From positions 248,001-312,000 of the forward strand of contig SMLU01000004.1 of NCBI GenBank assembly GCA_007859745.1: a stretch of DNA of 64,000 nt, written 5' to 3'. Below are positions 14,266 to 25,087 of the stretch, piece after piece (the first letter of the stretch is position 1; every line of letters begins with the position of its first letter). This DNA comes from Phycisphaerae bacterium RAS1 (GTDB taxonomy: Bacteria; Planctomycetota; Phycisphaerae; UBA1845; Fen-1342). The translations under genes and the position numbers were made by a program. The notes beneath the pieces are model-generated. The model had not been told where the DNA came from. It saw only the letters and a list, made by a program, of their open reading frames with translations, and made no database searches.

Positions 14266-14811
14266 GTGTCAGCCACTGATCGAAGCCTCATTCAGGATTG
14301 TCTGCGCGGCGATGCCGCGGCGTGGGATCGGTTCGTTGCGCGCTACTCCCGGCTGGTGTACTCGATTCCGCGGAAACTGGGGCTGACCGAGGCGGACTGC
14401 GACGATGTTTTTCAGACGGTATTCGGGGTGGTCGTGCGACGGCTGGAGAGCCTGCGTGATGAGTCGCGCACGGCCGCGTGGTTGGTGCGGACGACCTACC
14501 GCGAATCCTGGCGCGTCGCCAAGCGCCGCCGTGGCGGGCCGGCTGAGCTGCCGGGCGAGTACGCGGACCCGCAGGAGCCGAACGAGGAGGAGGTGCTGCG
14601 TCTGGAGCGGCAGCACCTGATCCGGGCGGGGCTGGCGGAGTTGGAGCCACGCTGTCGCGAGCTGCTGGAGTTGCTGTTTTTCGAGGCCGAGACGCCGGAT
14701 TATGCCGAAATTTCGCGGCGAACCGGCATCGCGGTGGGGGGAATCGGGCCAACGCGGGCGCGATGCTTCAAGAAGCTGGAGACCATTCTGGGCCGGCATG
14801 GGTTCCGATAA
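14266..14811 (+). CDS. ECF-type RNA polymerase sigma factor
   Basis: 181 aa, GTG start with 'GGGAC' upstream. Region sigma-2 is at residues ~10-75 ('AWDRFVARYSRLVYSIPRKL' then 'DVFQTVFGVVVRRLESL'), and sigma-4 at ~120-175, where 'EISRRTGIAVGGIGPTRARC' is the -35 recognition helix-turn-helix. There is no sigma-3, as expected for group 4 factors. Size and pattern match the short planctomycete ECF factors. The gene opens a locus with a putative anti-sigma factor and a TPR-CHAT protein. A gap of 188 nt before the next gene leaves room for an autoregulated promoter. Confidence 0.92.
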   Translation: MSATDRSLIQDCLRGDAAAWDRFVARYSRLVYSIPRKLGLTEADCDDVFQTVFGVVVRRLESLRDESRTAAWLVRTTYRESWRVAKRRRGGPAELPGEYADPQEPNEEEVLRLERQHLIRAGLAELEPRCRELLELLFFEAETPDYAEISRRTGIAVGGIGPTRARCFKKLETILGRHGFR

Positions 14812-14999
14812 CCGCGACCGGTTGCGTACAAGCTATCCCAGAACTCTCCCCGAGCCGCAACCGTGAGGGAGCGGAGGCCTAAGAACCGCTGGCTTACGCG
14901 CGCGGCTCGGATCGAATCGGCCGTTACGGGATAGCTGCTGGTATTTTCCGGCCGCGGGCCGTCTCTGTTCGGGCAGAGACCTCTGGCAAAGAGTGGACC

Positions 15000-15611
15000 A
15001 TGACAGACTCCATGCTGATTGCCTACTTACTGGGTGAACTGACCGAAGCAGAAGCGGCTGAGGCCCGGCGGGCGATCGCCGCCGACCCCGAGCTGACCGC
15101 GACGGTGGCTCGCTGGGGCGCGATCCTGGATGCGGGCCGCAGTGATCGGTCGGTCGCGCCACCGCCGGCGACCATGGCCGCCGCGCGCGAGCTCTTTGCG
15201 CGACGTTCAGCCCGGGCCACGGCGTCGACCGCGGCCGGCTGGCTGGAACGGCTGCGGCGCGTCATCGCTGACTGCACGTTTGACAGTCGGGCGCAGCTTG
15301 CCACGGTCGGGCTGCGCGGGGCGGCCGATCAGTACCAACTGGCGTACGAAAGCGAGCTGGCCGATGTCGACCTTGAGGTGCAGCGCTGCGGCGAGCAGTC
15401 GGCGCGGCGCGTGATGGGCCAGGTCACGCTGCGAACGGGCGCGGCGCCGGCGGCGGTGCTTCTCACCGAGCATGGCGACCCGACGGTTGTGACTGAGACG
15501 ACGGCGGACGAGCATGGCGCGTTCAGCCTGGACATCGCCGCGGGCTGTTTCGACCTGCTGGTCGCGGTTGGCGATGAGTGCGTGGTCCTGCCTTCCATTG
15601 AAATCCAATGA
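15000..15611 (+). CDS. Putative anti-sigma / regulatory protein of the CHAT locus
   Basis: 203 aa. The N-terminal ~45 residues ('LIAYLLGELTEAEAAEARRA' and the following helix) look like the helical sigma-binding domain of anti-sigma factors, but without the usual HxxxCxxC zinc site. The C-terminal ~75 residues look like a carboxypeptidase-regulatory-type beta-sandwich ('TTADEHGAFSLDIAAGCFDL'). No transmembrane helix is visible, so a cytosolic protein is expected. It sits between the ECF sigma factor and the TPR-CHAT gene and overlaps the latter as ATGA. An anti-sigma factor, or a protease substrate holding the sigma factor, is the best inference; the family is not recognised with certainty. 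Confidence 0.6.
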   Translation: MTDSMLIAYLLGELTEAEAAEARRAIAADPELTATVARWGAILDAGRSDRSVAPPPATMAAARELFARRSARATASTAAGWLERLRRVIADCTFDSRAQLATVGLRGAADQYQLAYESELADVDLEVQRCGEQSARRVMGQVTLRTGAAPAAVLLTEHGDPTVVTETTADEHGAFSLDIAAGCFDLLVAVGDECVVLPSIEIQ

Positions 15612-18469
15612 ACCTGAATCCGGACGAATCCGCGGCCTTGCTGGCGGAGCTGACGGCGGCGCGGCCCGAGGAGCGCGCCGCGCGGCTGAGCGCGGTGCGC
15701 GACGCAGCGCCGCTCATCATCGGCCTGATTCAGGAAGTGGAGCGACTGGCGTTCACCGACGTGAGCAAGGCGCTGGCCGCGTCGGAACTCGTCTTGCGAC
15801 TGGCGGAAGTGCTGGGCGGCTCGGGTGAGTTTTGCCGCGCGCTGCGGGCGCGGGCGCAGACGCTGGCCTACGCCGGCCGGCCGGACGAAGCGCTTCAGGT
15901 TTTCCGCACGGCGGTGACGGCCGCCGAGCGCGCCGGACTGCCGCGCGACGCGGCTCAGGCCCGAATGTCATCGATGCACGCGCTGTGCCTGGCGGGCAGT
16001 TACGACGAGGCGATCTCCGCCGGCCGCGCGGCGTACGACGTTTTTGAGAAGGAAGGCGAACGCCTGCTGGCCGCGCGGGTCGATTCGAATCTGGGCGGCG
16101 TGTTTCTGGCGCGGGAGGATTGTGCGGCGGCACTGAGCCATTTCGAGCGCGCCCGCGCCGCACTGGCGACGGACCCGGTCGCGGCGGCGCAGATCGACAG
16201 CAATCGCGGTCGGGCGCTTCTGGGAATGGACCGCTTCGCGGATGCGGAGAAGGCGCTCGCGGAAGCGCTGCCGGTGTTTGAGCAGGCGCAAATGGCCTGG
16301 GCAGCGGCGATCGTCGAGGGAAACCTGGCGGACGTCGCGACCCGGCAGGGACGGTTGAGCCAGGCGCTGCTGCACTTTGAGCGCACCCGCCGCCATCTGG
16401 AGCAGGACGCCGCTCCGGGCGAATTGGCGCGCGTGATGGCGGAGCAGGCCGAGGCGCTCCTGTCGCTGGGGATGTTCGCTGATGCCGCCGCCCAGCTTGG
16501 TCAGGTTCTGCCGCAACTCATCAGCCAGCGATTGGCGCTGGAGGCGGCCAAGGCGCGGGCGGCGCTGGGGCGGGCGCTGCTGGAATTGGGCCGCGAAGCC
16601 GAAGCGGAGTCGACGCTAAGCGCGGCGGCGGGCGGTCTGGAAGCGCTCGGCCAGTCGATCGAGCGCGCCCGGGTGGACGCGGTGCGGGCGGAGCTGCTGC
16701 GCCGCGCCGGCCGGGCTCGTGAGGCCGAGGCGCTGCTCCGCGGCGCCTTGCACACGTTCGAAGGCCGGCCCGTGGATGCCGCGATGGCCCATTACCATTT
16801 GGCGCGCATCGCGCTCGAGGAAGGCTGGCTGGATGCGGCCCAGCGCGAAGTTGCGGCGGCGCTGGGTCACGCCGAGCCGCTCGATCTCGCCCCGCTGCTG
16901 GCGGACCTGTTTCACCTGCGCGGACTCATCGCGGGGCGAAGCGACCAGGCCGAAACGGCGCTGCGGGATTTGCGGCGTGCGGTCGAGCGCGTCGAGCGCA
17001 TTCGCGGCTCGCTGCAGGCGGAGCGTTTCCGCGCCGCGTTCCATGGCAATCGGCTCGCGGTCTACGAGGATCTGGTCGCCGCGCTGCTGCGCGCGCCGAC
17101 CGCCGGCAACGTCGCCGAGGCGTTCGCGGTCGCCGAGAAAGCCAAGAGCCGGCTGCTGTTGGACCGGATGCAGGGAATTCTCGATGACGTTGCGGTGGAT
17201 GACGCGGCCGACGGGCCGATTCTGTCCCAGTTGCATCAGCGCCGCGCGCAGGCCAGCGCGCTCTACAGCCGCCTGGCGGAAGGCGACGCGCGCTCCGAGG
17301 CGGTCGAGCGCCGGCGGCGGCGCGTGGTCGCGCTCGAAGACGAAATCGCGCGGCTCGAGAGTCGCGTCTCCACGACGCGCCGCGGAGCGATGCTGTTTGC
17401 ACCGCCGACCGACCTGTCGACCGTGCAGTCGCGTTTGCGGCCGGACACGGTTGTGCTGGAGTACTTCGCTCTCGGCGGACAAGTGCTGGCGTTTGTCGCG
17501 CGCGCGGACGAGGCCAGCGCGGTCACGTTGCCGACGGACATGGGCCAGGTGCACGAGCAGGTGGAGCGTTTGCACTTTCAACTTCGTCGCAGCCTGCGGC
17601 CCGGCGCCGACGGCGGTGGGCGCGGGCGGCGCCTGCTCGATGACGTGCAGCGCGAGCTGAAAGCGCTGTATCAATCGGTGCTCGCGCCGCTGATGCCGCT
17701 GCTGGAGGGCGCGACGAAGCTGATCGTCGTTCCGCACGGGCCGCTGCACGCCGTCCCATTCGCTGCGCTCTACGACGGCGCATACCTGGTCGATCGATTC
17801 GAGGTCACGTACGCGCCTTCGGCCAGCGTGTCCGTGGCGAGCGCGGTCGCAGACCGGCCGGACGCCGGTTTGCGAACCGACGCTTCGTCCAGCTCGGCGG
17901 CATTACGCAGCGTGGTGGTCGGCTTTGCCGACGCGGCCGCGCCGCTGATTGAAAACGAGGCCCGCCAGGTAGCGGCGTCGCTGGGAGGCGCCGAGTTGCT
18001 GGTCGGCGCCGACGCGACACTGGCGCGTGTCACGCGCCACATGCGCGACGCCGGGCTGATTCACCTGGGGGCCCACGGTCACGCCGCCGCCGATAACCCG
18101 ATGGCCGCCGGCGTTCGGCTCGCCGACGGCTGGCTGCGGCTGCGCGACGTTTATTCGCTGCGGCTGGCAGGCCCGCTGGTGACGCTCAGCGGCTGCGAGA
18201 CAGGAAAATCGGTCGTTGGCGCGGGGGACGAGCTGCTGGGTCTGATTCACGGCTTTCTGGCCGCCGGCGCAGCCGGGCTGATGGTCAGCCTGTGGTCGGT
18301 GGATGATTCCTCGACCGCCGAATTAATGTCGGATTTCTACGGACTGTGGCGGTATGATGGACATGGGGCGGCAGCTGCAACGGCTTTGCGACAGGCGCAG
18401 CGGCGGCTGAGGGCGACCCGGCCGCATCCCGCGCACTGGGCGCCTTTTGTTTACGTAGGTGGCTTATGA
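15608..18469 (+). CDS. TPR-CHAT protein, caspase-like protease
   Basis: 953 aa. Residues ~60-480 are a chain of tetratricopeptide-like helical hairpins (repeated A-x-A-L / Y-D-E-A-I patterns), a typical ligand-binding sensor. The C-terminal ~300 residues are a CHAT domain of the caspase-like fold: 'HLGAHGHAA' with the catalytic His (H823 or H825) and 'LVTLSGCETG' with catalytic C863, followed by 'AAGAAGLMVSLWSVDD'. Both catalytic residues are present, so it should be an active Cys protease in the cytoplasm, with the TPR part gating activity. Gene order (ECF sigma, small regulator, TPR-CHAT) suggests it cleaves the small regulator. It overlaps the subtilase gene as ATGA. Confidence 0.88.
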   Translation: MNLNPDESAALLAELTAARPEERAARLSAVRDAAPLIIGLIQEVERLAFTDVSKALAASELVLRLAEVLGGSGEFCRALRARAQTLAYAGRPDEALQVFRTAVTAAERAGLPRDAAQARMSSMHALCLAGSYDEAISAGRAAYDVFEKEGERLLAARVDSNLGGVFLAREDCAAALSHFERARAALATDPVAAAQIDSNRGRALLGMDRFADAEKALAEALPVFEQAQMAWAAAIVEGNLADVATRQGRLSQALLHFERTRRHLEQDAAPGELARVMAEQAEALLSLGMFADAAAQLGQVLPQLISQRLALEAAKARAALGRALLELGREAEAESTLSAAAGGLEALGQSIERARVDAVRAELLRRAGRAREAEALLRGALHTFEGRPVDAAMAHYHLARIALEEGWLDAAQREVAAALGHAEPLDLAPLLADLFHLRGLIAGRSDQAETALRDLRRAVERVERIRGSLQAERFRAAFHGNRLAVYEDLVAALLRAPTAGNVAEAFAVAEKAKSRLLLDRMQGILDDVAVDDAADGPILSQLHQRRAQASALYSRLAEGDARSEAVERRRRRVVALEDEIARLESRVSTTRRGAMLFAPPTDLSTVQSRLRPDTVVLEYFALGGQVLAFVARADEASAVTLPTDMGQVHEQVERLHFQLRRSLRPGADGGGRGRRLLDDVQRELKALYQSVLAPLMPLLEGATKLIVVPHGPLHAVPFAALYDGAYLVDRFEVTYAPSASVSVASAVADRPDAGLRTDASSSSAALRSVVVGFADAAAPLIENEARQVAASLGGAELLVGADATLARVTRHMRDAGLIHLGAHGHAAADNPMAAGVRLADGWLRLRDVYSLRLAGPLVTLSGCETGKSVVGAGDELLGLIHGFLAAGAAGLMVSLWSVDDSSTAELMSDFYGLWRYDGHGAAAATALRQAQRRLRATRPHPAHWAPFVYVGGL

Positions 18470-19881
18470 GTTCGCGCTTATCCGCGCTCGGCGCGCTTCC
18501 TGCGCTGTTCGCGCTGCTGCTCTCGCGACAGGTTCACGCGGCCGATATCGATCCGCTCATTCCGGATCAGGCCATCGTCCGCCTGATTCCCGGGGCCGAC
18601 ATCAACGCGGTCAACACGCGGCACGGCACGGCCACGCTGCGAGCGATCGCGAACCGGCCGATCTATCTGCTGGACATGCCGGACGGCGTTGATCCGGAGA
18701 TTTTTCGCGACCAGCTTCGCGACGATCCGGACGTGAATTACGTCGATTTCAACTACGCCAGCGAGGCGCCCGAAGCCCGCGGCCGGACTTTCTTCTTCAA
18801 TGTCATGCCCGTGCCCGACCAGTACCAGACGCAGGCCGTGTGGTCCGCCATCGGGCTGCCGCAGGCGCATCAACATTCCAACGGCGGCGGCGTGCTCCTG
18901 GCGATGGTGGACGGCGGCCTCGAAATCGCCCACCCGGCGCTGGCCGGTCACATCGCCCCCGGCGGACAGAACCTGATCGACGGCTCCGCCAACCTGGAGG
19001 ACGTTGGAGACGGACAGGACAACGACAGCGACGGCCTGGTCGACGAAGCTGTCGGCCACGGCACGCACATCGCCGGCATCCTCGCACACGTCGCGCCGCA
19101 GGCAGCGATCCTGCCGCTCGTCGTGCTCGACAGCGACGGTCTGACCGACAATTTCCTGCTGGCGGCGGGCGTCTTCGCCGCGCTGGATGCCGGCGCCGTC
19201 GTGGTCAACGTCAGCATCGGCACCACGTATGACTCGAAGGTGCTGGAAGACGCGCTGGATGAAGCCGAACTGGCCGGTGTCGTCGTTGTAGCCGCGGCCG
19301 GCAATCTGAATCGCTCCGCTCCGCCCGAGTATCCCGCCGTGCTGGCCGCGGCGCTGGGCGTCGTGAGCGTGGACGGCGCGGACGTAAAGAGCAGCTTCAG
19401 CAACTTCGGAGCGCTGATGGACCTGGCCGCGCCCGGCGAGGCCGTATACAGCACCATCCCCGGCGGTCAGTACGCCGCCTGGAGCGGGACCAGCATGGCT
19501 ACGCCCCTGGTTTCGGGGGCGGCGGCTCTGCTCCTGGCGCGGCACGCGGACTGGCCGGCTTCGATCCGCGCCGTGCGGGTGACTACCTATCTGCAAAACA
19601 CGGCGGTCGCGATCGACGCCGGCAATCCGGGCTTCGCGGGGCAGCTCGGCGCCGGCCGGCTCGATGTGGACGCGGCGGTGCGCGATATCCTGGGCGACCT
19701 GAATTGCGACGCGCGCGTGAACGTCCTCGATATCAACGCGTTCGTGCTGGCCATTGAGGACGCGGCCGCATACGCCGCGGCGCATCCTTTTTGCGACCGC
19801 GGCCTGGCGGACCTGAATGGCGACGGCATGGTAAACGTCCTTGACATCGGGCCGTTCGTTGATTCCCTTCTCGCGCCATGA
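18466..19881 (+). CDS. Secreted subtilisin-like (S8) protease with dockerin-like tail
   Basis: 471 aa. A signal peptide ('LPALFALLLSRQVHA') is followed by a short propeptide-like region and an S8 domain. The full triad is visible: D149 in 'LLAMVDGGLEIAHP', H198 in 'GHGTHIAGIL', S343 in 'GTSMATPLVSG', with oxyanion N280 in 'AAAGN'. An Asp-rich loop ('GDGQDNDSDGLVDE') may bind calcium. The C-terminal ~60 residues carry the same two-repeat dockerin-like tail as the protein at 1141-3639. It should be an extracellular or surface-bound protease. Its start overlaps the TPR-CHAT stop and its stop overlaps the OPT gene, tying it to both. Confidence 0.92.
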   Translation: MSSRLSALGALPALFALLLSRQVHAADIDPLIPDQAIVRLIPGADINAVNTRHGTATLRAIANRPIYLLDMPDGVDPEIFRDQLRDDPDVNYVDFNYASEAPEARGRTFFFNVMPVPDQYQTQAVWSAIGLPQAHQHSNGGGVLLAMVDGGLEIAHPALAGHIAPGGQNLIDGSANLEDVGDGQDNDSDGLVDEAVGHGTHIAGILAHVAPQAAILPLVVLDSDGLTDNFLLAAGVFAALDAGAVVVNVSIGTTYDSKVLEDALDEAELAGVVVVAAAGNLNRSAPPEYPAVLAAALGVVSVDGADVKSSFSNFGALMDLAAPGEAVYSTIPGGQYAAWSGTSMATPLVSGAAALLLARHADWPASIRAVRVTTYLQNTAVAIDAGNPGFAGQLGAGRLDVDAAVRDILGDLNCDARVNVLDINAFVLAIEDAAAYAAAHPFCDRGLADLNGDGMVNVLDIGPFVDSLLAP

Positions 19882-21743
19882 ACGGCGCACCCGGCAACGG
19901 CGGCAACGGTGATTCCGGACCCCAGCTCACGCTTCGCGCCATCCTGACCGGCGGCGCGCTGGGCGTGTTCATGTCGATTTCCAACCTCTACCTGTCGGTG
20001 AAGATCGGCTGGTCCTTCGGCGTCGCCATCACCGCGTGCGTGCTGTCGGTCGTGTTCTGGAACGCGCTGCGGGCGGCGTCCCTGGGCCGGCTGCCGGCCA
20101 TGTCCATCCTCGAAAACAACTGCATGCAGTCGACCGCCTCCGCCGCCGGCTATTCGACCGGCGGCATGCTGGGCATGGCGTTCGGCGCGCTGCTGCTCAC
20201 GACCGGCTCGCACGCACCGTGGTATTTCGTCATGCCGATCATCTTCCTGACCGCCGCGCTCGGCGTGTTTGCCGCGATTCCGATGAAGCGGCAGATGATC
20301 GACATCGAGCAGCTTCCCTTCCCCAGCGGCATCGCCGCCGCCCAGACGCTGCGGAGCCTCTACAGCCGCAGCCGGGATGCGCTGCAGCAGGCGTATGCGC
20401 TGTTGCTGTCGCTGGGCGGCGGCGCGGCGGTCGGCGTGCTGCGGATTCAGGAGGGGCTGCTTCCCTGGCTGGATCGCGTGATCGCGTCGATACGTCTGCC
20501 GGAGCTGATCGCCATTCCGGCGCGTTTTTCGCCGATTCCGGATCATCCGCTGGCGGGCTTCGGATTCCAGCCCAGCGCCCTGCTGGTCGGAGCCGGGATG
20601 CTGATGGGGCTGCGCGTGTGCCTGTCGATGATCGGCGGGGCCGTCCTGCTCTATTGCGTCGTGACGCCGATTCTGTACCAGATTGACGCATCTCACGTCG
20701 GGGATCCGGGCTACGTTCCGTCGCGGATCATGAGTCCGGACGGGACTATTCTGCCGCCGCGCTGGGCGCTCTGGACCGGGACGGCGGCGATGGTCTTCGC
20801 CAGCCTGACGTCGCTGGCTCTGGCGTGGCCCGCGGTGGCGCGCTCCTTCCGATTCAGCGCCGCGGCCCGCACGGGCGGCGCAGCGGCCGCGCGCGACGTG
20901 CCGTTCGCGTGGTTCGTGGCGGGGATGATCCCAATCAGCATCGGGATGGTCGCGCTGCTGCACCTGGCGTTCAACGTCTCGATTCTGCTGGGCGTCGTCA
21001 GCGTCGCGATGACGTTCGTGGTCGCGTTGGTATGCTGTCGCGTCACGGGCGAGACCGATACGACGCCGATGGGCCCGGCCGGCAAGTTGACCCAGTTGCT
21101 CTTCGCCGTTTTGGCCCAGGGCAACACGACGGTGAACCTGATGTCCGCCGGTGTGACGGCCGGCGCCGGCGCGAGCGCCGCCGATCTGCTGACCGATCTG
21201 AAGTGCGGGCACGTGCTGGGCGCCTGTCCGCGCCGGCAATTCCTGGCGCAGCTTGCCGGCGTCGTGTTCGGCACGCTCGCGGTCGTGCCGGCGTGGTACA
21301 TGATGTTTCCCGATGCGCAGCGGCTGGAGCAACTCAATCCGCCGGCGACGATGATGTGGGTGGCGGTGGCCCAGGCTCTGACAGCGGGGCTGGATTCCAT
21401 TCCGCCCTCAGCGCGCAGCGCGGCGGTGATCGGCGCACTCGTCGGCGTCGCACTTCCCTTGCTGGAGGCCCGCTTCCCGCGCGCGGCGCGCTTCGTGCCG
21501 TCGGCCACCGGGCTGGGATTCTCCTGGGTGATGACATTTGACAGTCCGCTGGCCTTCGCGGCCGGCGCGGCGCTGGCCGCCCTCTGGGCTCGTCTCTCGC
21601 GCCGCTCCGCCGACCGCTTCGCCGTGCCGGTCGCCTCCGGGTTGGTCGCCGGCGAGTCCCTGGCGGTGGCGCTGATGGCGATCCTGGCGGCTTTTCCAAG
21701 CGCGATTTCGCAGTTACTGGCTGCCCTCGGCGTCGGCGCGTAA
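19878..21743 (+). CDS. OPT-family oligopeptide transporter
   Basis: 621 aa with about 14-16 hydrophobic helices. 'GVFMSISNLYLSVKIGWSFG' and 'ILENNCMQSTASAAGYSTGG' match the OPT/YSL family N-terminal signature, and 'MPIIFLTAALGVFAAIPMKR' continues it. These carriers import short peptides or metal chelates with protons across the inner membrane. The gene overlaps the secreted protease as ATGA, so uptake of the peptides released by that protease is a natural inference. It is the last gene of the sigma-CHAT-subtilase operon and converges on the next gene. Confidence 0.9.
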   Translation: MNGAPGNGGNGDSGPQLTLRAILTGGALGVFMSISNLYLSVKIGWSFGVAITACVLSVVFWNALRAASLGRLPAMSILENNCMQSTASAAGYSTGGMLGMAFGALLLTTGSHAPWYFVMPIIFLTAALGVFAAIPMKRQMIDIEQLPFPSGIAAAQTLRSLYSRSRDALQQAYALLLSLGGGAAVGVLRIQEGLLPWLDRVIASIRLPELIAIPARFSPIPDHPLAGFGFQPSALLVGAGMLMGLRVCLSMIGGAVLLYCVVTPILYQIDASHVGDPGYVPSRIMSPDGTILPPRWALWTGTAAMVFASLTSLALAWPAVARSFRFSAAARTGGAAAARDVPFAWFVAGMIPISIGMVALLHLAFNVSILLGVVSVAMTFVVALVCCRVTGETDTTPMGPAGKLTQLLFAVLAQGNTTVNLMSAGVTAGAGASAADLLTDLKCGHVLGACPRRQFLAQLAGVVFGTLAVVPAWYMMFPDAQRLEQLNPPATMMWVAVAQALTAGLDSIPPSARSAAVIGALVGVALPLLEARFPRAARFVPSATGLGFSWVMTFDSPLAFAAGAALAALWARLSRRSADRFAVPVASGLVAGESLAVALMAILAAFPSAISQLLAALGVGA

Positions 21744-21846: not shown

Positions 21847-22794
21847 TCAACGGACTGCAACAGGCGCCGCCGGGGACCGCGCACCGCGATGATCCGACAC
21901 GCCACCTGCGGCTCGCTTTTCCAGAACAAACTGAATCCCCGAGGCGCCCAGGCGAGCGCTGGCGCCTTCCAGCGTGGACACTCGCTCAGTCGGCGAGAAC
22001 AGGGCGCAGTTGACGTGCTGAAGAACGTCGTCGGCCAGACCCGGGACCCGGGCGATGAGGGTCGCAAGCTCAGCCGGGGGCGTATTGCCGTCGGTGAGCG
22101 CGGCGCGCAGACGATCAATCGACGCGGGCTCCGTGTCGCCGTGCGCGAACTCGGCCGGCTCGGGATCGTTGAGCGCGTCATTCGGCGGACTGCGCATCTT
22201 GTCGCATAGCGCGCAGATGCGCGCAAACGCGCGGATGGCGTCGTCCGCAAGGGCCAGAAGCGCTTGCCCGGGAACGGGGTGCACCTGCGTACCAATGAGT
22301 TCGCGAAACGCGGCGTCCACCAGCACGCGCCGCTCCGCGATCTTGCCTTGTGCCGCGTTCCAGAGGCACTCGTAGACCGCCGGCGCATGGATGATCGCGG
22401 CTTCCAGCGGACCTTCGGTCGTCAGGCCGAGCGGCCCGCCGCCGTCCGGGCGCTCGCGCGAGCACCAGATCGCCTCGTGAATCCGCGGCCGGTGCGGGTA
22501 GAGCTTGGCGAGCAGGCGGCCGGCCAGCTCCAGGCGCATGCTGCCCGCCAGAAACTCGCCCGGCTCCATGCTGTCGTCCGGACGATCGCGAATCCAGCCG
22601 ACCAGAGGCAGGGCGCGCACCGCGAGTTCCAGGTCATCCAGCGTGGGTTTGGCCAGCCGCAGCTCCGCGGCAATGGCGAGCGCGAGGCCGCCCAAGGCTT
22701 GTCCCTTCAGGTGCTGGTGCGGCGCGAGCGCTTCCCCAATTGAGCACACAATCGCCAGTATCTCGGAGTCGCGTTGCTCGTCCACGTCTGGCAT
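21847..22794 (-). CDS. Degenerate HD-GYP / HDOD signalling protein
   Basis: 315 aa. The N-terminal ~170 residues follow the HD-GYP plan but lack its metal ligands: the usual HD pair is replaced ('RALPLVGWI') and the GYP segment reads 'RERPDGGGPLGL' after 'RIHEAIW'. Residues ~235-290 match part of an HDOD domain ('LIARVPGLADDVLQHVNCAL' then 'TLEGASARLGASGIQ'). It is therefore probably a non-catalytic scaffold or c-di-GMP-related sensor. It lies at the end of a minus-strand run of receiver-domain genes, so a link to that phosphorelay is likely. No Asn-Ser 'NSA' motif typical of classical HDOD is present (it reads 'NCA'). Confidence 0.6.
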   Translation of the reverse strand: MPDVDEQRDSEILAIVCSIGEALAPHQHLKGQALGGLALAIAAELRLAKPTLDDLELAVRALPLVGWIRDRPDDSMEPGEFLAGSMRLELAGRLLAKLYPHRPRIHEAIWCSRERPDGGGPLGLTTEGPLEAAIIHAPAVYECLWNAAQGKIAERRVLVDAAFRELIGTQVHPVPGQALLALADDAIRAFARICALCDKMRSPPNDALNDPEPAEFAHGDTEPASIDRLRAALTDGNTPPAELATLIARVPGLADDVLQHVNCALFSPTERVSTLEGASARLGASGIQFVLEKRAAGGVSDHRGARSPAAPVAVR

Positions 22795-22830: not shown

Positions 22831-23748
22831 TCAAGCTCCGGCTCCCTGACGGTCTCGGCTCGGAAGGAGCTCTGGGATCGCTTCCGGTCTACATACCGGC
22901 ATTCCACCCGCATCCGGTTTTGAATCTCTGATCTCGGCACGCAGCGCGCCGGCGATCGCCGAGAAATCGGGCGGCTTGATGAAGACCGCGCTCGCACCGA
23001 GGCCGAGCAGCTCGCGCTCCAGCGAGAAGTCGCGCCGCCCGCCCACGGTCTTGCCGGTCAGGACGAAGAGCGGCGTCTGATGGGTCAACGGGTGCGCCTT
23101 CAAGCGCGAGATGATGTAGTCGCCATATCCGTCCGGCATGGTGTAGTCGGTGATGATGGCGTCAGGTCGCTCCTTCAGCGCCATCCAGAACCCCTGCATT
23201 CCCGTCTGGGCGCGGATCACGCGGATGTCCTGCGCGCCGAGCCGGGTTTGGAAAGCTCGGCCGATATCGGGATCGTCGTCGATGACCAGAACACAGGGGC
23301 CGGCGCCGACGGGTCGTTCGACCGGCGCACGGTTCGTCGGCGCGGCGAGCGGGGGCCCGCCGGCCGCGGCGTCGGGTTGGATTTGCAGCAGCTCGCAGAT
23401 GAGTGGTTTCAGGCGTTCCCAGGTATCGAGGCCTTTCCACACATAGTGCGCGCCGAGCCGCTCGCAGCGGTCAATAGTCTCGTCGTCCGTCCGGCCGGTA
23501 AGGATGATGACGGGGAGCGGGGCGAAACGCTGGTCACGGGCCAGCTCCTCGCACATCGAAAGTCCGCCGGCGCCGGGCATGGTGACATCGAGAATGACCA
23601 GGTCGGGGGTCTCCTGGAGCAGAACCTGATAAGCGTGAAGTCCGTCCGGGGAGATGCGCGTGTCGGCGCCCAGATGCCGGCAGCGCAAGGCGAGCGCCGC
23701 CGTCAAGCTGTGGTCATCGTCCGCGATGAGAATCAGTTTGCGTGACAT
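22831..23748 (-). CDS. Double receiver-domain response regulator (REC-REC)
   Basis: 305 aa with two CheY-like domains. REC1 (~1-120) has 'LIADDDHS', phospho-acceptor Asp in 'LVILDVTMPG', and a shifted Lys in 'YVWKGLD'. REC2 (~150-270) has 'VLVIDDDPD', Asp in 'IITDYTMPDGYGDY', the Thr in 'LTGKT' and the Lys in 'FIKPPD'. There is no output domain, so it should act by phosphotransfer or protein contact. 'GGGAGCCGA' before the ATG is an acceptable ribosome site. It belongs to a minus-strand series of receiver genes running from 32303 down to 21847. Confidence 0.88.
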   Translation of the reverse strand: MSRKLILIADDDHSLTAALALRCRHLGADTRISPDGLHAYQVLLQETPDLVILDVTMPGAGGLSMCEELARDQRFAPLPVIILTGRTDDETIDRCERLGAHYVWKGLDTWERLKPLICELLQIQPDAAAGGPPLAAPTNRAPVERPVGAGPCVLVIDDDPDIGRAFQTRLGAQDIRVIRAQTGMQGFWMALKERPDAIITDYTMPDGYGDYIISRLKAHPLTHQTPLFVLTGKTVGGRRDFSLERELLGLGASAVFIKPPDFSAIAGALRAEIRDSKPDAGGMPVCRPEAIPELLPSRDRQGAGA

Positions 23749-23815
23749 TCGGCTCCCTTTCGATCGCAGCGTGGCGCCGCGCGCCAGAGTCGGATGCGAA
23801 GAGCTGTCGGCGCGC

Positions 23816-24256
23816 TCAATGAGCCGGTTGACGCCGTTTCAGCTCGGACACCTGGCGTATTTCCGCGAGTTCGTCATGTGCGAAGATCCGGTCGAGAATC
23901 CCGAGCAGCACGTCGAAGTCATACGGCTTGGCCAGGAAGAATCGCCCTCCGGAATCGCGGTAGCGCTCCTCGAATTCGCTGTCGGCCCGTCCGGTGATGA
24001 AGATGATCGGGATCTCGGACGTGTCCGGCTCGCGGCTGAGGACCGAGGCGACGTCCAGTCCGTCGACGTCGTCCCACAGGCCCACGTCCAGCGTGATGGC
24101 GTCGATTCCGCCGGCGCGGGCGAAGCGAAAGGCGTCGGTTCCGCTGGTGGCGGTTTGCACCTGGAATCCGACTTCGCGGAGCCGCTTGGCCAGCGCAAGA
24201 ACGACGCCCAGATCGTCGTCAACAACCAGCACTTTCTTTTGGTCCCGACGGGTCAT
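23816..24256 (-). CDS. Single-domain response regulator (REC)
   Basis: 146 aa from the ATG at 24256, chosen because 'CAGGAGAC' precedes it; an ATG at 24310 would add 18 residues. CheY-like: acidic pair in 'VLVVDDDLG', phospho-acceptor in 'AITLDVGLWDD', Thr in 'FITGRAD', Lys in 'LAKPYDF'. There is no output domain. The start lies 2 nt past the stop of the upstream receiver gene (24259), so the two are co-translated. Confidence 0.88.
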   Translation of the reverse strand: MTRRDQKKVLVVDDDLGVVLALAKRLREVGFQVQTATSGTDAFRFARAGGIDAITLDVGLWDDVDGLDVASVLSREPDTSEIPIIFITGRADSEFEERYRDSGGRFFLAKPYDFDVLLGILDRIFAHDELAEIRQVSELKRRQPAH

Positions 24257-24258
24257 GG

Positions 24259-24690
24259 TCAGTCTCCTGAACGGGTTTCGCAGAGTCGCGCGGCGGCCGC
24301 GGTGCTGCATTCGCCCTCAGACGGCAGTACCGCCCGTATCGCGTCGATCAGCCGCGGCGCGTCGAAGGGCTTCTCAAGGAAGTAGCGCGCCCCGAGATTC
24401 AGCGCCTCGACTCTGCCTTTTTCAACCACGCTGGCGGAGAGCACGACGACCGGAATGTCGATCGTCTCCGGGTGCTCGCGCAACTTCCGCAGGACGGTCA
24501 ACCCGTCCACCACCGGCATGCGCATGTCCAATACGATCGCATCCGGCGCCGCTTCGAGCGCGGCGCTCAGCCCCTCCTCGCCGTCATACGTTACCGTGAC
24601 GTCAAAGCCCTCGGCCCGCAGCCGAATGGCTACGCCGCGGGCGATGTCGCGGTCGTCGTCCACGAGCAGGATTCGCTTTTTCTCAGGCAA
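24259..24690 (-). CDS. Single-domain response regulator (REC), TTG start
   Basis: 143 aa. I place the start at a TTG (24690) because 'AGGAGAG' lies six bases upstream and the receiver fold starts at once ('KKRILLVDDDRD'); an ATG at 24765 would add 25 residues that do not look like part of the fold. Phospho-acceptor in 'AIVLDMRMPVVDG', Ser/Thr position in 'VLSASV', Lys in 'FLEKPFD'. It overlaps the end of the upstream receiver gene by 8 nt. No output domain. Confidence 0.85.
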   Translation of the reverse strand: MPEKKRILLVDDDRDIARGVAIRLRAEGFDVTVTYDGEEGLSAALEAAPDAIVLDMRMPVVDGLTVLRKLREHPETIDIPVVVLSASVVEKGRVEALNLGARYFLEKPFDAPRLIDAIRAVLPSEGECSTAAAARLCETRSGD

Positions 24691-25087
24691 GAGTTCTCTC
24701 CTGCATCCGGCCCCGACCGATCCGTAGACATTGCTGGACCTGGCGCAGCAGCTCTGCAAAATCAAACGGCTTCGTCACGAACGCGCTCGCCCCGAGGCTG
24801 AGAGCCTCACATTGATCTTCCGTACTCGCCCCGCCGGTGAGATAGATCACCGGCGGCGGCGAGGCCAGGCGCTCATTCAACAACCGATGGAACTCGAATC
24901 CGCGCTCATCGATCAGGTGAAGGTCCGTGATGATCAGATCCGGACATTCCGCCTGCGCCACCCGCAGCGCTTCGTTCGCGGCGCGCGCCAGAACCACTGC
25001 ACAGCCGGCGGATTCGAGCCGCAATTGCAGAACGTGGGTCAACTGGGCGTCGTCGTCGACAATCAGGATCAGAGGCCGTGGCGTCAC
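24683..25087 (-). CDS. Single-domain response regulator (REC)
   Basis: 134 aa from a GTG at 25087. 'LILIVDDDAQ', phospho-acceptor in 'LIITDLHLIDERG', Thr in 'YLTGG' and Lys in 'FVTKPFDF' define a complete CheY-like receiver. It follows the large hybrid kinase gene by 12 nt and overlaps the next receiver, so it is part of the same transcript. No output domain. Confidence 0.87.
   Translation of the reverse strand: MTPRPLILIVDDDAQLTHVLQLRLESAGCAVVLARAANEALRVAQAECPDLIITDLHLIDERGFEFHRLLNERLASPPPVIYLTGGASTEDQCEALSLGASAFVTKPFDFAELLRQVQQCLRIGRGRMQERTLA

Follow-up and report, generated by a model that had tools for sequence, protein, structure and literature searches.

How might a bacterium hold an extracytoplasmic function (ECF) sigma factor inactive in the cytoplasm and release it by proteolysis, without any part of a CRISPR (clustered regularly interspaced short palindromic repeats) system? 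This question is raised by a locus in a 64,000-nucleotide stretch of the genome of Phycisphaerae bacterium RAS1 (the window, in whose positions all coordinates are given unless another contig or locus is named). Here, an ECF sigma gene is followed by genes for a 203-amino-acid (aa) protein, a TPR-CHAT protein, an S8 subtilase, and an OPT-family transporter. A preliminary description had presented the five genes as one unit and as a possible protease-gated sigma system. All five open reading frames were confirmed, as were the three ATGA overlaps (at 15608, 18466, and 19878) that chain the 203-aa, TPR-CHAT, S8, and OPT genes; a 188-bp gap (14812-14999), which contains a palindromic repeat, lies between the sigma and 203-aa genes. 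On balance, we lean toward reading the locus as a cytoplasmic ECF sigma switch that is gated by a protease and contains no CRISPR parts, in which the TPR-CHAT protein would cut a soluble anti-sigma factor in a loop around Arg106 and thereby free the sigma factor.

The gene association itself is already published for the sigma factor group ECF54, which reportedly goes back to Casas-Pastor et al. 2021. The ECF54 context includes CHAT, subtilase, and "carboxypeptidase" proteins, with a model member from Geodermatophilus amargosae; proteolysis was proposed, and the group was classed among the sigma factors without an anti-sigma factor (PMC8999054). The window sigma factor has the two-domain ECF architecture of this group (sigma70-ECF model TIGR02937, E 1.1e-18 over aa 19-173) and is conserved across 11 relatives.

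We searched for the TPR-CHAT protein in 60 relatives and in the genome itself. Outside that genome, 13 loci in nine genomes of the same family encode a homologue that covers most of the protein (33-48% identity); 12 of these loci are intact, and that of G019 is fragmented. At every one of the 13, a 203-aa homologue precedes the TPR-CHAT gene and an S8 gene follows it, an order that exceeds chance. A sigma gene, whole or in fragments, is close by at 12 of the 13, once about 2.7 kb upstream. In one genome, G022, the 203-aa/CHAT/S8 trio stands together with no sigma gene within the fetched flanks. The genome of L050 (G069) carries its only CHAT gene at contig coordinates that match those in G022, and its sister sigma gene is on a contig where neither a CHAT nor a 203-aa match adjoins it; G022 and the genome of L050 are probably the same genome, in which the sigma gene is placed apart. 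Because the G022 trio stands without a sigma gene, the 203-aa protein appears to stay with CHAT.

A wider view came from a sigma-profile scan of named genomes, which gave at least 593 stretches, 355 of them encoding a relative; the best 80 of the 355 were used as loci. By their titles, they belong to Planctomycetota, Chloroflexi, Acidobacteria, Rubrobacter and other Actinobacteria, Burkholderiales, Chthonomonas/Fimbriimonadaceae, and Eisenbacteria. Of the sister-sigma loci, 64 extend 3 kb or more past the sigma gene, and 53 of these 64 have a 203-aa-type gene and then a CHAT gene. Conservation of the sigma/203-aa/TPR-CHAT order, which the preliminary description had left as a check, reaches far beyond this genome. 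Two more have CHAT and a 203-aa protein that was missed by the profile but is visible in the reading frames, with G-x-R. The others comprise four with a long membrane-type protein and no CHAT, one (L060) with the 203-aa type and no CHAT, and four with neither, one of which has a weak S8-profile match. An S8 gene follows CHAT at 44 of the 53 pair loci, precedes the sigma gene at 2, and was not found at 7 (4 of which have at least 6 kb after the sigma gene). Across 45 loci, the distance matrices of the four proteins correlate (Pearson 0.74-0.83, Spearman 0.46-0.62), and for each of four pairs tested none of 499 permutations was as high, as would be expected if the set is inherited together. The term "one unit" holds for the sigma, 203-aa, TPR-CHAT, and S8 genes, with the OPT gene excluded.

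Some further points concern the sampling. A census of the phylum with a narrow 14-member profile found 4 of 294 genomes, this one included, at E 1e-10; it was a close-range search, mostly with 10 candidates scored per genome, and we draw no prevalence from it. Rows of the alignments were chosen mainly for completeness: in alignment A4, 15 of the 20 rows fused in the same frame, along with 28 of the 46 rows for separate sigma factors and 27 of the 46 for separate anti-sigma factors; all 10 fused rows, 46 of 56 separate anti-sigma rows, and all 39 separate CHAT rows in A5; and the window with 59 of 66 loci in A6. One locus (L121:2781-9543) holds two divergently oriented sister sigma genes, one of them with a full anti-sigma/CHAT/S8 set.

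What, then, is the 203-aa protein? We are highly confident that it is a soluble anti-sigma factor. The NCBIfam anti-sigma model NF052375 matches 21 of 60 family members (E up to 0.001; best, 4.2e-9), and the RsrA and ChrR models match 6 and 2 of the 60, respectively, at the same threshold. At E up to 0.01, zf-HC2 is found in 10 of 60 members (best, 1.4e-6) and CarboxypepD_reg in 18 of 60, the latter falling on the C-terminal part of the window protein. By E-value, a class I anti-sigma domain is thus present in the family, with the window protein itself sub-threshold. A zinc-binding type of motif, H-x3-C-x2-C, occurs in 12 of 66 members, and a profile of the family gave weak matches in the PDB to RslA, RskA, and RseA chains (E 0.065-0.98; RslA according to the title of 3hug). 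Within the genome itself, 2 of 3 further hits of the 203-aa profile that were examined are encoded directly after other ECF sigma genes. With limits transferred from the model of a homologue, the protein would consist of an N-terminal anti-sigma domain (about aa 3-75) and a C-terminal CarboxypepD_reg-like beta domain (about aa 92-203). Its most hydrophobic 19-residue stretch, aa 179-197, is borderline (1.82) and falls in the C-terminal strands of that model.

The sister loci without CHAT are informative here. Five sister sigma genes, all under Chloroflexi titles, have no CHAT gene detected beside them and are followed by genes for membrane-type proteins of 408-542 aa. These align with the 203-aa family over the first 86 positions at most, after which they continue with a strongly hydrophobic segment and end in a C-terminal region of another kind (DUF5667 in L051 and FecR in L098 by Pfam; the others judged by eye). 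The FDS..GxR motif is absent from all five. Because the CHAT-less sister sigma factors carry such membrane-type proteins, comparison of the sequences suggests one N-terminal domain with two kinds of input half, either membrane-bound or soluble and paired with CHAT.

An AlphaFold model of the sigma and anti-sigma factors of homologous locus L053, built as a fused chain, has a mean predicted local distance difference test (pLDDT) score of 87 and a predicted template modelling (pTM) score of 0.73, and its anti-sigma part is made up of four N-terminal helices and a beta domain. The sigma part fits sigma factors bound to an anti-sigma factor (1or7_A, 4nqw_A, 8z6g_D, and 6in7_B) with a root mean square deviation of 11-13 Angstrom over about 145 residues, and those bound to RNA polymerase (6jbq and 9m9d) with 25-27 Angstrom over about 140. 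This weakly hints at a compact, inhibited arrangement; the hint is weak because a fused chain was modelled and a deviation of 11 Angstrom does not amount to a tight match. A second look (VIA) found no anti-sigma chain among the 50 matches listed, which does not exclude the fold.

The dyad of the proposed protease is conserved. The CHAT domain matches PF12770 at E 2.5e-53, with TPRs also matched, and contains a His-Cys dyad. H823, C863, E784, and D840 are invariant in 59 of 59 CHAT rows (the window, 9 relatives, and 49 loci with a CHAT match over 2500 bases; the broken L044 and the duplicates L036, L043, and L046 are omitted). The preliminary description had pointed to H823/H825 and C863, all of which are present in the window; the first and last stand, but H825 is shared by just 4 of the 59 rows and does not qualify as catalytic. 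The structural neighbours of a TPR-CHAT model from locus L087 are led by Csx29 and separase. We have good confidence that CHAT is an active protease, and we predict, with somewhat better than middling confidence, that the anti-sigma factor is its substrate. Homologues were also looked for in a plasmid collection, which gave no 203-aa homologue and one partial CHAT match. As a separate observation, three large TPR-CHAT proteins are encoded close together elsewhere in the genome of the window (C1, ~941-963 kb; L048:6319-10428, L049:1-2688, and L049:5645-9832, the 1-2688 gene being cut by the fetched end). Their CHAT match spans about 480 residues with weak PDZ matches inside, and their similarity to the window protein is confined to the CHAT region and, weakly, the TPR region.

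Where might the cut fall? Arg106 is the sole invariant residue of the 203-aa family, present in 77 of 77 aligned members at a mean pairwise identity of 25% (membrane-type L051, L057, L080, L098, and L115 and the duplicate records L053, L065, and L070 are left out of this alignment), and its column was again the sole invariant one in a re-trimmed 60-row alignment. The surrounding motif is G-[VLFIM]-R-[GSA]: a Gly stands two positions before the Arg in 70 of the 77 members, V, L, F, I, or M lies between them in 69, and G, S, or A comes next in 65. In the L053 model, this Arg (residue 326) sits in an inter-strand loop, with block 321-330 at a pLDDT of 55. In a fused model of the L087 anti-sigma and TPR-CHAT proteins (mean pLDDT, 91.7; pTM, 0.86), the Arg loop, residues 101-109, scores below 50 between confident strands. 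Clan CD proteases often favor a basic P1 residue, Arg or Lys, and Arg is the residue after which separase cuts. To judge from the models, an invariant residue in a disordered loop would be better explained by outside recognition than by a role in the structure. We tentatively put forward Arg106 as the cut site, a plausible assignment in which our confidence is limited.

These elements can be arranged into a working model. The N-terminal domain of the 203-aa protein would hold the sigma factor, and the C-terminal beta domain would expose the loop around Arg106. The TPR superhelix may sense a cytoplasmic signal or partner and thereby switch on the His823/Cys863 protease, which would cut the anti-sigma factor in the exposed loop, most likely after Arg106. 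The leftover piece of the anti-sigma factor would then disappear or be weakened, as has been suggested for Csx30 and CalpT, the inhibitors in the CRISPR-linked systems compared below. The freed sigma factor would transcribe the operon that encodes it, with the exported subtilase among its genes, and perhaps further genes. Computation shows which genes make up the set, their order and conservation, the similarity to anti-sigma domains, the invariant dyad, and the invariant Arg in its flexible loop; binding of the sigma factor, the cleavage and its site, activation through the TPR part, and the targets of the sigma factor are inferred from these.

It is important to weigh this model against other explanations of the same locus. 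It is possible, though rather unlikely in our judgment, that the 203-aa protein is an anti-sigma factor that is never cut: TPR-CHAT would act by binding, through partner exchange, or the beta domain would sense a ligand, and CHAT would cleave something else. The evidence for an anti-sigma domain is independent of cleavage and serves this explanation equally; the beta domain, moreover, belongs to a sandwich/carboxypeptidase-regulatory class often seen in binding modules, and CHAT did not order the Arg loop in the L087 model. Against it are the CHAT dyad, which is without exception in the 59 rows, and the position of the only invariant anti-sigma residue, which lies in a flexible loop with a motif like a protease site rather than in a confident core strand. 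Direct proteolysis of the sigma factor with no anti-sigma factor at all, the proposal made from gene context for ECF54 (PMC8999054), strikes us as very improbable indeed, since anti-sigma models match members of the 203-aa family and the CHAT-less sister loci encode anti-sigma-type membrane proteins sharing its N-terminal domain. The "carboxypeptidase" of the published context is, plausibly, the CarboxypepD_reg-like regulatory domain of this family and not an enzyme. Alternatively, the neighborhood may be conserved while its products act in sequence without contact, with TPR-CHAT processing, for example, the subtilase or other proteins under an ordinary sigma/anti-sigma pair. The frequent place of S8 after CHAT and the exported look of the subtilase would suit such an arrangement, but the 203-aa/CHAT pair remains at the 7 loci where S8 was not found, 4 of them with ample sequence, and the G022 trio keeps together with no sigma gene in the fetched flanks; we regard this explanation as quite improbable.

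Several observations also weigh against the protease-gated switch itself. The window 203-aa protein matches anti-sigma models weakly, at E 1.6e-5 and far below cut-off, and the NF052375 matches in the family cannot, at such E-values, come near that model's 100-bit cut-off. Both AlphaFold models represent homologues (L053 and L087), not the window proteins themselves. In the fused L087 model the Arg loop remains disordered, so that the model does not show docking into the CHAT site, and the invariant Arg could be a binding instead of a cutting residue. Two family copies, L060 and L119, retain the Arg although no neighboring CHAT gene was detected; the genomes of both have several other CHAT genes, so one protease may serve several anti-sigma factors. 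CHAT genes also occur elsewhere in the genomes of the membrane-type loci (9 of 9 genomes searched). The locus statistics are biased toward near copies because they come from the 80 most sigma-similar of 355 relatives, and three of the 80 duplicate near relatives; the distance correlations can arise from shared ancestry alone. Finally, a dyad search upstream of 73 sigma genes found no common promoter motif and nothing above the GC-rich background, which leaves autoregulation by the sigma factor unsupported.

Features of the locus, with positions in the 64,000-nucleotide window
Feature	Positions	Strand	Details
ECF sigma factor gene	14266..14811	+	181 aa; GTG start; TAA stop 14809-14811; GIGPTRARC region-4 motif; TIGR02937
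Imperfect palindrome, dispersed genomic repeat between sigma and anti-sigma genes	14831..14936	no strand	
Soluble anti-sigma factor candidate	15000..15611	+	203 aa; NF052375, zf-HC2, and CarboxypepD_reg matches in family; AlphaFold model of homologue L053
Arg106 codon, proposed P1 residue of the cut (G-L-R/G)	15315..15317	+	sole invariant residue of the 203-aa family alignment
TPR-CHAT protein	15608..18469	+	953 aa; CHAT domain aa 681-951; His823 (18074-18076); Cys863 (18194-18196)
S8 subtilase, probably exported	18466..19881	+	471 aa; PF00082; triad intact
OPT-family transporter, outside the conserved module	19878..21743	+	PF03169, E 4e-72

The palindrome between the sigma and anti-sigma genes has arms at 14831-14844/14923-14936 and 14850-14874/14886-14910. 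The element, about 110 bp long, gives at least 53 matches in this genome, at least 44 of them at E <1e-19 including the window's own (40 of 279 candidates scored); its copies number in the dozens and share 81-97% identity. The copy at C1:1645780-1646504 is embedded in a 165-bp unit present in 4.4 tandem copies (97%). The element is seen at window 14812-14999, L130-L137, and L142:281-1005. It is probably an insertion rather than a working part of the locus, possibly a REPIN- or MITE-like element. A search of the gap against Rfam gave just two matches, both at chance level.

The subtilase matches PF00082 at E 3.6e-40 and has a weak C-terminal match to Dockerin_1 (E 0.014). Its catalytic triad, described earlier as intact, is so and is conserved as well: D149 in 54 of 55 rows, H198 in 55 of 55, and S343 in 54 of 55 (L050, L053, L065, L070, and relatives outside the profile set are left out). 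A signal-peptide-like N terminus, judged by eye, indicates that the protein is probably exported. PADLOC returned a generic subtilase profile and a weak IetS match only. The OPT transporter is found at 1 of the 13 relatives' loci (L038, in opposite orientation) and at none of the 80 sister-sigma loci within the fetched flanks, which extend more than 1.9 kb past the last module gene at 52 of the 80. Since OPT lies outside the conserved unit, peptide uptake through it, once suggested as an output of the system, is unsupported. On the minus strand at 22831-25087 and 21847-22794, a run of response-regulator-like reading frames stands beside an HDOD protein; Pfam finds Response_reg in the 305-aa frame, and the others were judged by eye.

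Beyond the published gene association, what is new here is the likely anti-sigma factor, the candidate cut site, and the swap between membrane-bound and CHAT-paired inhibitors. Searches of open-licence literature, covering mostly titles and the starts of abstracts and exclusive of subscription papers, gave no recognized paper naming an ECF54 anti-sigma factor, a cut site, or this swap. If the reading is correct, sigma factor release by a caspase-family protease would be a general mode of bacterial signaling and not a CRISPR oddity, and ECF54 would gain its inhibitor along with a named candidate cut site. It may also provide a non-CRISPR counterpart of the transcription arm of Craspase.

How does the locus compare with known systems? 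The likeness to ECF54 is close: the same gene set is present, including at Rubrobacter loci, and its context of CHAT, subtilase, and carboxypeptidase(-regulatory) proteins is found here, the match being one of gene context alone. The two differ in that the "carboxypeptidase"-type protein is read here as a soluble anti-sigma factor with a candidate cut site. A tie between CHAT and an ECF sigma/anti-sigma pair is seen also in DdvA/DdvS (PDB 8rot and 8rw5), where DdvS is activated upon inactivation of DdvA (PMC4374960) and the CHAT profile matches at E 4.7e-9, with agreement by fold as well. DdvA, however, joins its CHAT region and a transmembrane anti-sigma factor in one chain, according to PDB names and titles, whereas our locus has no such single transmembrane chain but separate genes and a soluble anti-sigma factor. 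PMC7159879 contains none of the terms CHAT, sigma factor, anti-sigma, and CATRA, and PMC12669027 has no sigma-factor term and mentions CHAT once. In the type III CRISPR system CalpL/CalpT/CalpS, the protease CalpL cuts the soluble anti-sigma factor CalpT, which holds the ECF sigma factor CalpS (PMC11417357). The three-part logic of protease, soluble anti-sigma factor, and ECF sigma factor is shared, but CalpL is a Lon protease with a SAVED sensor of cyclic tetra-adenylate (cA4), in contrast to TPR-CHAT here.

The comparison that matters most for the proposed cut is with Craspase, the type III-E CRISPR system of Csx29, Csx30, and CASP-sigma. Csx29, a TPR-CHAT protein, cleaves Csx30, which binds an ECF sigma factor through its N-terminal domain; the cleavage point is within a short flexible loop in the C-terminal domain, and the fragments were proposed to be degraded (PMC10028731). 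The locus resembles this system in its TPR-CHAT protease, in its predicted inhibitor of an ECF sigma factor, and in the flexible-loop cut, which we propose by analogy. Our CHAT profile matches Csx29 chains with E down to 6.7e-15. The differences are also clear: the Csx29 family model NF041237 scores 36.5 bits against a cut-off of 300, in the CHAT region only, which places the protein outside that family; the invariant Asp840 is Asn in the 8d9f chain; and the window operon includes a subtilase. A profile of 14 members of the 203-aa family found no Csx30 among PDB sequences up to E 10, although distant kinship is possible. The earlier idea of a Csx30-like inhibitor holds as a functional analogy, with no relationship in sequence found by this search. 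The absence of gRAMP/Cas7-11 noted earlier agrees with a search of the whole genome (99% complete), in which no match to PF03787 (RAMPs) was found, compared with 4 of 14 control genomes that gave one. A cas1 match in a 617-aa open frame (G000:C1:1699282-1700133) means that the genome has cas genes despite the lack of a RAMP match. We think it unlikely that type III-E Craspase with Csx30 and CASP-sigma is a CRISPR-captured switch of the type described here, its TPR sensor having been rewired to an RNA-guided effector.

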